In this document: one piece after another, positions 59,915-62,674 of the stretch
How positions within the stretch are numbered: the stretch's first letter is position 1
Layout of the letters: each line of letters starts with the position of its first letter
NCBI GenBank assembly: GCA_937995515.1
Contig: CALKJZ010000014.1
Span: 124,001-188,000 of the forward strand
From: an uncultured Sphingomonadaceae bacterium
GTDB taxonomy: Bacteria > Pseudomonadota > Alphaproteobacteria > Sphingomonadales > Sphingomonadaceae
Direction of reading: 5' to 3'
DNA length: 64,000 nucleotides
Notes under the pieces: model-generated
Seen by the model: the letters and a program-made list of their open reading frames with translations, nothing else
Database searches by the model: none
What the model was told of the DNA's origin: nothing
Made by a program: the position numbers and the translations under genes

Positions 59915-60793
59915 CTATTCGGCCGCAAGCGGCAGGTCGCCCCCTGCATCGCCGGCCAGCAGCGACAGCATCGCCTGCGCCGTCCTGGCAAAAGCCCCGA
60001 GCACCTCGGCCAGCAGGCCGGCGAGAGGTCCGAAGTCCGGCCCCGGCTCGAGGGTTGCCGGGTTCATGTAGAGCCCGCGGTCGATTTCCAGCTGCAGCAC
60101 GTGGAGGCCCGCGGCCGGGGCGGCGTGCCGCCGTGTGGTGTGGCCGCCCGCATAGGGCTGGTTGCGGGCCACCCGCAGCCCGCGGGCGGCAAACAGGCCA
60201 AGGAGCGAGTCGACGAGCGGGCCGGCCGCGCTGCGGCCATGGAGATCGCCGATCACGATCTGTGCCGGCGGCCCTGCGAGCGCGGGCAGGCCGGGCATCG
60301 AGTGGCAGTCGACCAGCACGGCCGCACCGTGGGCGGCGCGGATGGCGCGAAGCCGCCGGGCCAGCTCGGCATGATAGGGGCGGTGCACGCGCGAAAGGCG
60401 CATCGGGGCCTCGGCCGGATCGAGAAGGTCGCGGTAGATCGGCCTGTCGGGCGCAATCATGCGCGGGATCACGCCATAGCCCGCGCGCACCCGGTCCGTC
60501 AGCCGGATGGGCAGGTCGATCGGCCCATCGAACATCGTCCGGTCGAGCTCGGTCTCGGCGCGGTTGAGGTCGAGATAGCTGCGTGCGAACCGGGCGGCCA
60601 CGAGCGGCAGGCCCGCCTGTGCCGCCGGCCCGAGCAGCGCGTCGACATGCGCATCCTCGAACTGGCGCAGCTCGGCCCTCGAAAGCCTGGCGCCTGCAAG
60701 AAACGCAGCCGGCATGTGCGTGCCGCTGTGCGGCGAGGCGAGAAGCACCGGATAGCCGGCTGCAGCCGGGCCCGAGGCGACCCAGGGGGTCAT
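59915..60793 (-). CDS. N-formylglutamate amidohydrolase-family protein
   Basis: 292 residues from the ATG at 60793, overlapping the upstream photolyase-like gene by 4 nt (ATGA). FGase fold with metal-site motifs ASPHSGTHMP (H22), DAHVDALLG, RSYLDLNRAETELD and VDCHSMPG. Classical members hydrolyse N-formylglutamate in histidine breakdown; no hut genes are nearby, so the real substrate may be another N-acyl amino acid. Confidence 0.88.
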   Translation of the reverse strand: MTPWVASGPAAAGYPVLLASPHSGTHMPAAFLAGARLSRAELRQFEDAHVDALLGPAAQAGLPLVAARFARSYLDLNRAETELDRTMFDGPIDLPIRLTDRVRAGYGVIPRMIAPDRPIYRDLLDPAEAPMRLSRVHRPYHAELARRLRAIRAAHGAAVLVDCHSMPGLPALAGPPAQIVIGDLHGRSAAGPLVDSLLGLFAARGLRVARNQPYAGGHTTRRHAAPAAGLHVLQLEIDRGLYMNPATLEPGPDFGPLAGLLAEVLGAFARTAQAMLSLLAGDAGGDLPLAAE

Positions 60794-61983
60794 GCCACGA
60801 GCCGTGCGATCTGCGGGCGGAAGGCGAAGAAGCCCTTGCGCGCGTGCGGCCACGCGGCCCTGTCCCACTGCCGCATCACCGGCACGAGCGCGATGCCGGC
60901 CTCAGCGAGCGCGCGTGCTGCGGTGGCCACCCGGTCTGCCACGGGCCCCACGGGCGCATGCGGCGTCACCACCTGGCGCAGCCGGCTGGCGGTGGCCCAT
61001 GCGACGAGCCCAGCCTCGACATCGGGCTCGGGAAGGCGGGTGACGGGCGCCTGCCAGTGGGCGCTGGCACGCGCGCAGGCATCTGCCAGCCCGGCATCGG
61101 CATGGGCGCGTTTCAGCGGGGCCGGATCGCCGCCGATGCCGTCCACTGCTGCAATCGCCGCAATCGGCGGCAGGCCGATCGTCTCGGGCGAAAGATCCTC
61201 GGTGGTGATCCACAGCCCGGTTGCAAGCTCCGGGTCTGGCGCCGGCGGGGCCGGCAGCGGCACCAGCGGCACCGGCGGCTCGGCCGGCAGCGGGGGTGCC
61301 TGCGTGGCGAGCGGTGCCTCCACCCGGAACCGCCCGCCCGAGACCCGCCGGATCGTCTCGGCGCTGGCGAGATAGGTCTTGCCGACGGTCTGCAGCCCGG
61401 CCACCCAGCGCCACGAGAGCGTGTTGGAGGCCGGGCAGGCATCGAGGAGGTGGCGGAAGAAGAAGGCCGCTCCCAGCTCCCAGGGCAGCCGAAGCGTGAA
61501 GATCCAGATCGAGGCGAAGCTCATGCGGGCGTGGTTGTGGAGGTAGCCCGTGGCTTCCAGCTCGCCCACCCATGCATCGAAACAGTCGATGCCGGTGCGC
61601 GAGGAGATGGCGTCGGCATAGGTTGCGGCAAGCGCGGGCTCGCGGGCGAGGCGCTGTTCGGCCTGGGCCACGCCCGACACAAAGCGCTGCCACGCCTGCG
61701 GCCGCTGCTCCAGCCATCCGCGCCAGTAGCTGCGCCAGCAGACCTCGGCGACGAACTTCTCCGAGCTGGCAAGCCCGTGCGCGGCGACCGCCGCGCGGGC
61801 GACTTCTTCCTCGGTGATGAGCCGGCGACGGATGGCGGGCGACAGTTCCGACACGGTGGTGCGGCGGCCCGGCCCCTCGTCGAGATTGCGGCGCGCGGCA
61901 TAGGCCCGGCCCGCGCGCGGAACAAAGGCCGCAAGGCGGGCGCAGGCCTCGGCCCGCGTGCGCGCAAATCCGGGCTCAGCCAC
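60790..61983 (-). CDS. Photolyase/cryptochrome-like FAD-binding protein, domain order unusual
   Basis: 397 residues from the GTG at 61983. The first 215 residues are the helical FAD domain of photolyases: TVSELSPAIRRRLITEEE, FVAEVCWRSYWRGW, ISSRTGIDCFDAWVGELEAT, GYLHNHARMSFASIW, and SNTLSWRWVAGLQTVGKTYL. The N-terminal alpha/beta antenna domain that normally precedes it is missing. Instead, after a proline-rich linker (about 228-252), a 140-residue C-terminal part follows (VVTPHAPVGPVADRV, LAEAGIALVPVMRQWDRAAW, KGFFAFRPQIARL), which may be an equivalent small domain. Repair activity or light sensing is not shown. It is overlapped by genes on both sides, so it sits in an operon. Confidence 0.82.
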   Translation of the reverse strand: MAEPGFARTRAEACARLAAFVPRAGRAYAARRNLDEGPGRRTTVSELSPAIRRRLITEEEVARAAVAAHGLASSEKFVAEVCWRSYWRGWLEQRPQAWQRFVSGVAQAEQRLAREPALAATYADAISSRTGIDCFDAWVGELEATGYLHNHARMSFASIWIFTLRLPWELGAAFFFRHLLDACPASNTLSWRWVAGLQTVGKTYLASAETIRRVSGGRFRVEAPLATQAPPLPAEPPVPLVPLPAPPAPDPELATGLWITTEDLSPETIGLPPIAAIAAVDGIGGDPAPLKRAHADAGLADACARASAHWQAPVTRLPEPDVEAGLVAWATASRLRQVVTPHAPVGPVADRVATAARALAEAGIALVPVMRQWDRAAWPHARKGFFAFRPQIARLVA

Positions 61984-62674
61984 GGCGGAGAAGCGCGTCG
62001 GCCACCTGCTCGCGCGTGATGCACACCATCTGCCTCGGCGGCCAGCCCGGCTGGTAGTCGTCGAACACGGCCACCGGCGCGCGCGGCACGTTGAACGGCG
62101 GCTGGAACAGGTCGAACCAGCGGAAGCTGCCCGAGCGGATGTCGCGGTTCTTGACCTCGGGGCCGGTGTGGATGGTGGTGAGCATGAGCGGGATGGCCGA
62201 GCGGGCGAAGTTCGCAAGGGCTGCAAACACGTCGGCATTGGAAAGGTGAAACAGGCAGTCCCGGCACAGCCACAGTTCGGCAGCTGGCAGCGGGTCTTCC
62301 ACGATGTCGAGCACCACGAAGCGGGCCTGCGGCCAGTCGGTGGCCGCGCGGGCCCTTTCCACCACCGCCGGCACGAGGTCGGCACCTATATAGGCAATGC
62401 CCATCTCCGGCAGGATGTGCCGCATCCAGTTGAGATCGCCGCACGGTGCATCGAGCAGGGTCTTCACGCCCAGCGCGCGGACGAGGGCGGGCAGCTCGCG
62501 GCGGATCGTCTCGGTTGCCGCAAGGTGCGAGCCGGGGCCCGAGACGCTTTCCGCCGCGCCCCAGAGATTGTGGTCGTGGATGCGCTGGAAGGCCTGCCGG
62601 CGGTCGGCAAAGGCAAGCAAGAGCTCCGCGCGCAGGTGCCTGAGCGACGCGCGCATGCTGGCAAGGCTTGGCAT
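61976..62674 (-). CDS. Class I SAM-dependent methyltransferase
   Basis: 232 residues from the ATG at 62674; TTG at 62710 is a weaker alternative. SAM-binding motif LLDAPCGDLNWMRHILPEMG, then YIGADLVPAVVERARA and VVLDIVEDPLP. The C-terminal segment RWFDLFQPPFNVPRAPVAVF recurs in alphaproteobacterial homologues. Target unknown. It overlaps the photolyase-like gene by 8 nt, so the two are probably co-translated. Confidence 0.85.
   Translation of the reverse strand: MPSLASMRASLRHLRAELLLAFADRRQAFQRIHDHNLWGAAESVSGPGSHLAATETIRRELPALVRALGVKTLLDAPCGDLNWMRHILPEMGIAYIGADLVPAVVERARAATDWPQARFVVLDIVEDPLPAAELWLCRDCLFHLSNADVFAALANFARSAIPLMLTTIHTGPEVKNRDIRSGSFRWFDLFQPPFNVPRAPVAVFDDYQPGWPPRQMVCITREQVADALLRRG

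Follow-up and report, generated by a model that had tools for sequence, protein, structure and literature searches.

The open reading frame at positions 61983 to 60790 on the minus strand of the window (the whole stretch of 64,000 nucleotides that was analysed) very probably encodes a photolyase of the NewPHL/Phr7 type, in which the FAD domain comes first and the alpha/beta domain follows, and which would most likely repair cyclobutane pyrimidine dimers (CPDs), preferably in single-stranded DNA. The domain order, the conserved residues, the fold prediction and the placement within the family are direct results of the present analysis. For the photolyase family, they provide evidence that the C-terminal domain would be the canonical alpha/beta domain relocated. 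Further, the window gene gets a better name; its plasmid-borne relatives, where annotated, are called only 'FAD-binding domain-containing protein'.

Reading frame and FAD domain

The frame has a GTG start and a stop-free translation of 397 residues (CDS 60790..61983 with the stop included), and the open frame, the orthologs and the Pfam match of the FAD domain mark it as an inverted, photolyase-like protein. An ortholog was the best match (E 2.4e-79 or better) in 11 of 59 genomes, the window's own among them; ten of these 11 cover both domains and the remaining one (G002) ends at the contig end. The ORF is real and conserved. Elsewhere in the same genome we found a photolyase of conventional order, its alpha/beta domain being N-terminal (contig C8, 71485-72627).

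A Pfam search with the full protein matched PF03441 (FAD_binding_7) at residues 77-204 (3.2e-20), the profile being covered only to position 126 of 203. No second Pfam family, PF00875 included, was matched at E up to 10, and the NCBIfam photolyase/cryptochrome models match far under their cut-offs. All 39 PDB sequence matches at E up to 1 are photolyases or cryptochromes (some given under the bare locus name RE11660p). The top one, to a photolyase, spans residues 11-196 (2.1e-13), the best matched stretches all lie within residues 11-222, and none of the 39 covers the C-terminal part. In the AlphaFold2 model residues 1-236 form a photolyase FAD-domain fold, with which Foldseek is concordant, and residues 1-234 superpose on 1iqr (Z 15.9, 216 aligned, 3.0 A) and 1dnp (Z 14.6). 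A sequence-only reading had proposed that the FAD domain opens the protein with nothing before it. This agrees with what we found, as the domain begins at about residue 6 and an N-terminal antenna domain is absent before it; we delimit the all-helical N-terminal FAD-binding catalytic domain as residues 6-214 (61342..61968, minus strand).

Structure of the C-terminal domain

The same reading had described a proline linker followed by a C-terminal part, and both are seen in the model. The proline-rich linker, residues 215-254 (61222..61341, minus strand), is free of helix and strand, with pLDDT 92-97 by blocks of 10, and the C-terminal photolyase-type alpha/beta (antenna-like, 'Z') domain occupies residues 255-397 (60793..61221, minus strand). 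As input for AlphaFold2 we used alignment A3, whose 81 rows are the window protein and the unchanged translations of the best 80 of at least 581 relatives, homologs with identities of 39-53%. The full-length model reached a mean pLDDT of 94.8 and a pTM of 0.92, the latter denoting a confident relative placement of the two domains in the predicted model. Residues 250-397 alone were predicted with pLDDT 93.1 and pTM 0.86, and the three segments that had been quoted from this part, KGFFAFR among them, are present and lie inside this confidently predicted domain. Residues 255-396 run through the model as strand, strand, helix, strand, helix, strand, helix, strand, helix, helix.

Structure prediction and comparison with photolyases had been named as the check, and they gave an ordered C-terminal fold on which photolyase N-terminal domains align. 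Residues 3-161 of 1owl align with 141 of the 148 model residues in native strand order (Z 10.5, 3.6 A), CryB 3zxs aligns over 127 residues (Z 10.8), and the universal stress protein (USP) 7ji4 (Z 10.7) ties with the photolyases but has 110 residues aligned. Photolyases and cryptochromes make up 32 of the first 50 structure matches. Foldseek with the C-terminal domain alone returned no match at 1e-3; its top rows were methylglyoxal synthase and USPs, and the first cryptochrome came sixth (2.7e-2). The residues D374, G384 and F386 are identical in all 81 rows.

The 81 C-terminal domains were also searched with Pfam. PF04273 (BLH_phosphatase) was matched by six (best 7e-5), PF00875 by two (best 0.0099) and PF20256 by two, and fourteen further families matched one domain each. 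The window's own C-terminal domain had no Pfam match.

As a side observation, a protein of a Trypanosoma brucei mitoribosome assembly intermediate (PDB 7pub/7pua chain Ff) aligns with the full-length model over model residues 1-323 (Z 14.9), and a different part of the same chain matches the alpha/beta domain model (Z 9.4), so this protein may have a photolyase-like fold.

Origin of the C-terminal domain

A direct profile comparison of NewPHL-type C-termini with 21 canonical N-terminal domains (those passing a motif filter among 28 loci) scored 14.6, with shuffles scoring up to 17.6. As this gave no signal we used a two-step chain through a linking set of 13 sequences, namely nine of the downstream alpha/beta ORFs discussed below, the Deinococcus sp. 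QL22 gene and three Deinococcus C-termini. The step from NewPHL-type C-termini to the linking set scored 42.9 with a probability of 88.9%, against 18.9 for the highest of 30 column shuffles and 15.2 for the reversed alignment. The step from the linking set to the canonical N-terminal domains scored 55.2 (95.5%), against 18.6 and 11.7. Both steps are collinear over 129 columns each. PF00875 was matched by 8 of the 13 linking sequences (best 5.5e-5), with bit scores of 19.5-21.6 in the three examined, under the cut-off of 26.6, and no other family was matched by more than one. Two Deinococcus plasmid relatives carry, after the FAD domain, a stretch matching PF00875 under the cut-off (7e-4 in L034, 1e-3 in L152), and a third, L153, has no PF00875 match. 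On the Deinococcus sp. QL22 plasmid (L154:1396-2687) the second part has a gene of its own, which matches PF00875 at 2.3e-4.

The end-to-end alignment with 1owl and the profile chain via relatives indicate that the small domain comes after the FAD domain, and they support the conclusion, drawn from sequence and model, that residues 255-397 would represent a whole photolyase alpha/beta domain, in native order, moved behind the FAD domain. The earlier suggestions that the C-terminal part resembles a photolyase alpha/beta domain, and that the small domain was moved to the C-terminus, are thereby borne out: the order of the domains is reversed and that of the strands is native. One could instead read the C-terminal domain as an unrelated Rossmann or USP-like domain that was captured by an ancestral FAD-only photolyase, which would make the protein a fusion and not an inversion. 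The Z score of 7ji4 stands beside those of the photolyases, Foldseek ranks methylglyoxal synthase and USPs first, the direct profile comparison was not significant, and short ancestral photolyases without an alpha/beta domain are a published model, as quoted in an excerpt of PMC9649867. We nevertheless regard such a capture as improbable. Most photolyase rows reach the end of the domain (1owl 3-161 on model residues 4-148; CryB only to 138), whereas single-domain USP rows stop at residues 120-128 and two UspE rows at 131 and 140. Further, both steps of the chain are collinear and score well above their best shuffles, and PF00875 is the only family that recurs in the linking set.

Conserved residues and probable activity

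In all 81 rows of A3 the residues Y28, S45, L47, E80, W83, R84, N150, R153, M154, W168, D181, N187, W191 and W193 are identical. The FAD/CPD-contact equivalents of the A. nidulans photolyase among them are Y28, S45, L47, E80, W83, N150, D181, N187, W191 and W193, together with M154 and W168, the CPD contacts having been mapped by us onto the window protein. By alignment with 1owl, N187 corresponds to N378 in E. coli numbering. The FAD-contact positions of the A. nidulans photolyase were taken from the accessible part of PMC9426592. At the A. nidulans FAD position T240 all 81 rows have V or I, and at A385 mostly S. The position of D382 is C183 in the window protein and Asp in 80 of the 81 rows, and because C183 replaces a conserved Asp, the FAD chemistry may be altered in the window's lineage. 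The same Cys as C183 (61435-61437 of the window) was observed in four relatives (L002-L005).

At the position of the FAD switch, NewPHL are described as having a conserved Asn (PMC12083526, in part); the window protein has N187 there, and all 81 rows agree. They are also described with a Trp dyad instead of a triad (PMC8948257, in part). At the position of A. nidulans W314 the window protein has R114 and the other rows mostly T, D or A, in a loop that is poorly aligned, a nearby column being W in 28 of 81 rows. No Cys follows the FAD domain in the window protein, and the stretch 214-246 has none in 74 of the 81 rows and one or two in the other seven. The four Fe-S cysteines C169, C254, C257 and C263 (L156 numbering), common to five aligned relatives, are missing here, so that, judged by sequence, the window protein lacks the Fe-S cluster cysteines.

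To judge by its sequence, the window protein probably repairs CPDs, and a preference for single strands would follow by analogy with the reports on NewPHL (PMC9426592 and PMC13274461, both in excerpt). More generally, that the protein binds FAD, repairs dimers and prefers single strands, how electrons move through it and what its C-terminal domain does are all inferred from conserved positions and from what is published on relatives. In the proposed mechanism, blue light would excite the reduced FAD that sits among the helices of residues 6-214, a CPD would flip into the pocket and be contacted by E80, W83, N150, M154 and W193, and an electron would pass to the dimer and then back. Electrons for the re-reduction of FAD may enter via W191 and W168. 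The C-terminal domain would cover the FAD domain, and an antenna pigment is probably absent.

A cryptochrome-like light sensor in place of a repair enzyme seems to us a little less probable again than the capture of a foreign domain. C183 departs from an otherwise conserved Asp, and the host's conventional photolyase means that repair would already be covered, both of which would suit a sensor. Against this, the mapped CPD-contact positions do not vary among the 81 rows, and the neighbours examined, an amidohydrolase, a methyltransferase and an iron-sulphur assembly gene, point to no signalling partner; relatives are moreover reported as CPD photolyases in the available parts of PMC9426592 and PMC13274461. 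That the gene is a degenerate, truncated photolyase we consider highly improbable. The protein is shorter than canonical photolyases, has no N-terminal antenna domain and is matched by PF03441 only over the first part of the profile, but none of the 11 orthologous genes from the 59 genomes (one cut by a contig end) contains an internal stop, the catalytic positions are constant throughout A3, and the model is confident over nearly its full length.

Known reversed photolyases

NewPHL were reportedly described by Emmerich et al. in 2020, and an SPL by Xu et al. in 2021. The excerpts available of PMC9426592 describe Phr7 with the FAD domain first and a 'Z-domain' (an atypical, short photolyase domain) last, and a reversed domain order also for Phr4/Phr5 and Phr6, and those of PMC13274461 give NewPHL/SPL proteins an inverted topology and name D. 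shibae A8LJA9 among the members, with the further accessions M7YZC8, Q2N8F4 and B6IPR5. Phr7 is reported, in the part of the literature accessible to us, without Fe-S cysteines. SPLs are mentioned in passages of PMC9498864 and PMC9178010, and Xu et al., whose SPL is quoted by both PMC9649867 and PMC9178010, probably dealt with Phr4. The sequence-only reading had called the permuted arrangement a little-described form, which does not hold in the light of these descriptions of NewPHL/SPL, Phr7, Phr4/5 and Phr6. Our literature search, partly at the level of titles, returned no account of reversed photolyases beyond these. The reversed form is thus not new, and the window protein is a further member of a known, widespread bacterial group.

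The window protein fits NewPHL/Phr7, an assignment made via published descriptions of members and not by alignment with a characterised one; by title, none of the loci of the best 80 relatives comes from the four named NewPHL species. It resembles NewPHL/Phr7 in having the FAD domain first and the alpha/beta-type domain last, in lacking Fe-S cysteines, in carrying Asn at the switch position of FAD and in occurring in Alphaproteobacteria; C183 in place of the conserved Asp in the window's lineage is the only difference among the features compared. Phr4/Phr5 and Phr6 have the same reversed order as the window protein, but there the alpha/beta domain is often a separate gene, whereas it is fused here, and Phr4 and Phr6 have the Fe-S cysteines that the window protein lacks. 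The class I CPD photolyases (1owl, 1dnp, 1iqr) are alike in FAD-domain fold, contact residues and alpha/beta fold, and differ in that their alpha/beta domain (PF00875) is N-terminal. Class I CPD photolyases are known to match PF03441 over its full length, whereas here the match ends at position 126 of 203.

Distribution and phylogeny of the family

A pattern scan of public genome contigs matched at least 594 stretches, at least 581 of which encode a relative, and the best 80 were kept. These 80 loci comprise 70 from Alphaproteobacteria, 6 from Actinomycetota, 2 from Gammaproteobacteria and one each from a Betaproteobacterium and Vulcanimicrobiota. Six of the ten non-alphaproteobacterial loci are by title MAGs or uncultured and could be misbinned; the other four are from named strains. 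The alphaproteobacterial loci share their orders with the NewPHL species that PMC13274461 names. Among 398 genomes of the phylum, 23, the window's own included and all of the same class, have a match at 2.4e-115 or better, and 22 of them are matched more than once. On viral contigs the pattern matched 17 times, with no relative among the matches.

We built a tree of 62 FAD domains, with 45 inverted rows, for which 19 of the best 80 homologs were used, and 17 canonical rows that are mostly alphaproteobacterial. The neighbouring canonical genes of L163 and L155 were kept as canonical rows, while that of L037 (the L150 gene) and the partial L151 were dropped. The 45 inverted rows fall on one side of the branch from the 17 canonical ones (100/100), and within them 29 fused NewPHL-like rows fall on one side (100/100) and 16 sister rows on one side (96/92), these values coming from a bootstrap that was unsettled (0.984). 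Relatives resembling Phr4/5 and Phr6 account for the rest of the inverted rows. Three cysteines follow the FAD domain in 7 of the 16 sister rows (L034, L152, L153, L154, L160, L161 and L162), and the others (L037, L155 and L163-L169) have none or one. We considered 'Fe-S type' as a name for the whole sister group and discarded it, as only those seven rows keep the three cysteines. Over 44 tree rows (the split L168 being left out of the count) the fused and split states require at least three changes. It should be noted that the tree is silent on the order of events, being unrooted and drawing its canonical rows mostly from Alphaproteobacteria. At L163 and at the Persicobacter loci L037 and L155 a gene for a photolyase of conventional order lies near the inverted one.

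Split short photolyases

A class-wide sample of 385 genomes was searched with a profile of the sister-group FAD domains at 1e-40. Matches were found in 18 genomes, ten being FAD-only genes and eight being fused with a NewPHL-type C-terminal domain. Directly downstream of all ten FAD-only genes lies a separate alpha/beta-type ORF, whose first possible start is at most 17 bases from the FAD stop in each case; six of the ten overlap the FAD stop in a 1-base-back ATGA/GTGA pattern. Three of the ten FAD-only genes keep the three cysteines after the FAD domain. These gene pairs resemble the cyanobacterial phr4/phr5, and they show that outside cyanobacteria, too, a FAD-only short photolyase can have a separate alpha/beta gene next to it. 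The plasmid of Deinococcus sp. QL22 likewise has a FAD-only gene followed by a separate alpha/beta ORF, as in the ten genomes of the class; the two products are WP_249396019 and WP_249396018.

As a separate alpha/beta ORF adjoins all ten genes, the 'short' FAD-only photolyases seem not to be domain-less. We put forward, at about even chances, that the short photolyases (NewPHL together with SPL/Phr4) form one inverted clade in which the alpha/beta domain is always downstream, either fused or encoded by a translationally coupled gene of its own, and has changed repeatedly from one state to the other. If this is true, short photolyases are two-part enzymes and not domain-less ancestors of the family. 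The split pairs and the moved domain bear on the published idea of ancestral short photolyases lacking the alpha/beta domain.

Gene neighbourhood

The neighbours of the relatives' genes include iron-sulphur assembly genes (SufA-like, PF01521) and an N-formylglutamate amidohydrolase (PF05013); the gene next to the SufA-like one is presumably DUF59-like. In two of four loci the full set of neighbours was found, in one the amidohydrolase only and in one the iron-sulphur genes only. We imply no functional link between the photolyase gene and these neighbours. In the window a methyltransferase gene (Methyltransf_25, 61976-62659) shares 8 bases with the beginning of the photolyase gene. It was considered as an operon partner and rejected, as the loci of four relatives gave no match to it at 1e-5, and for the same reason it perhaps reflects a local insertion or loss.
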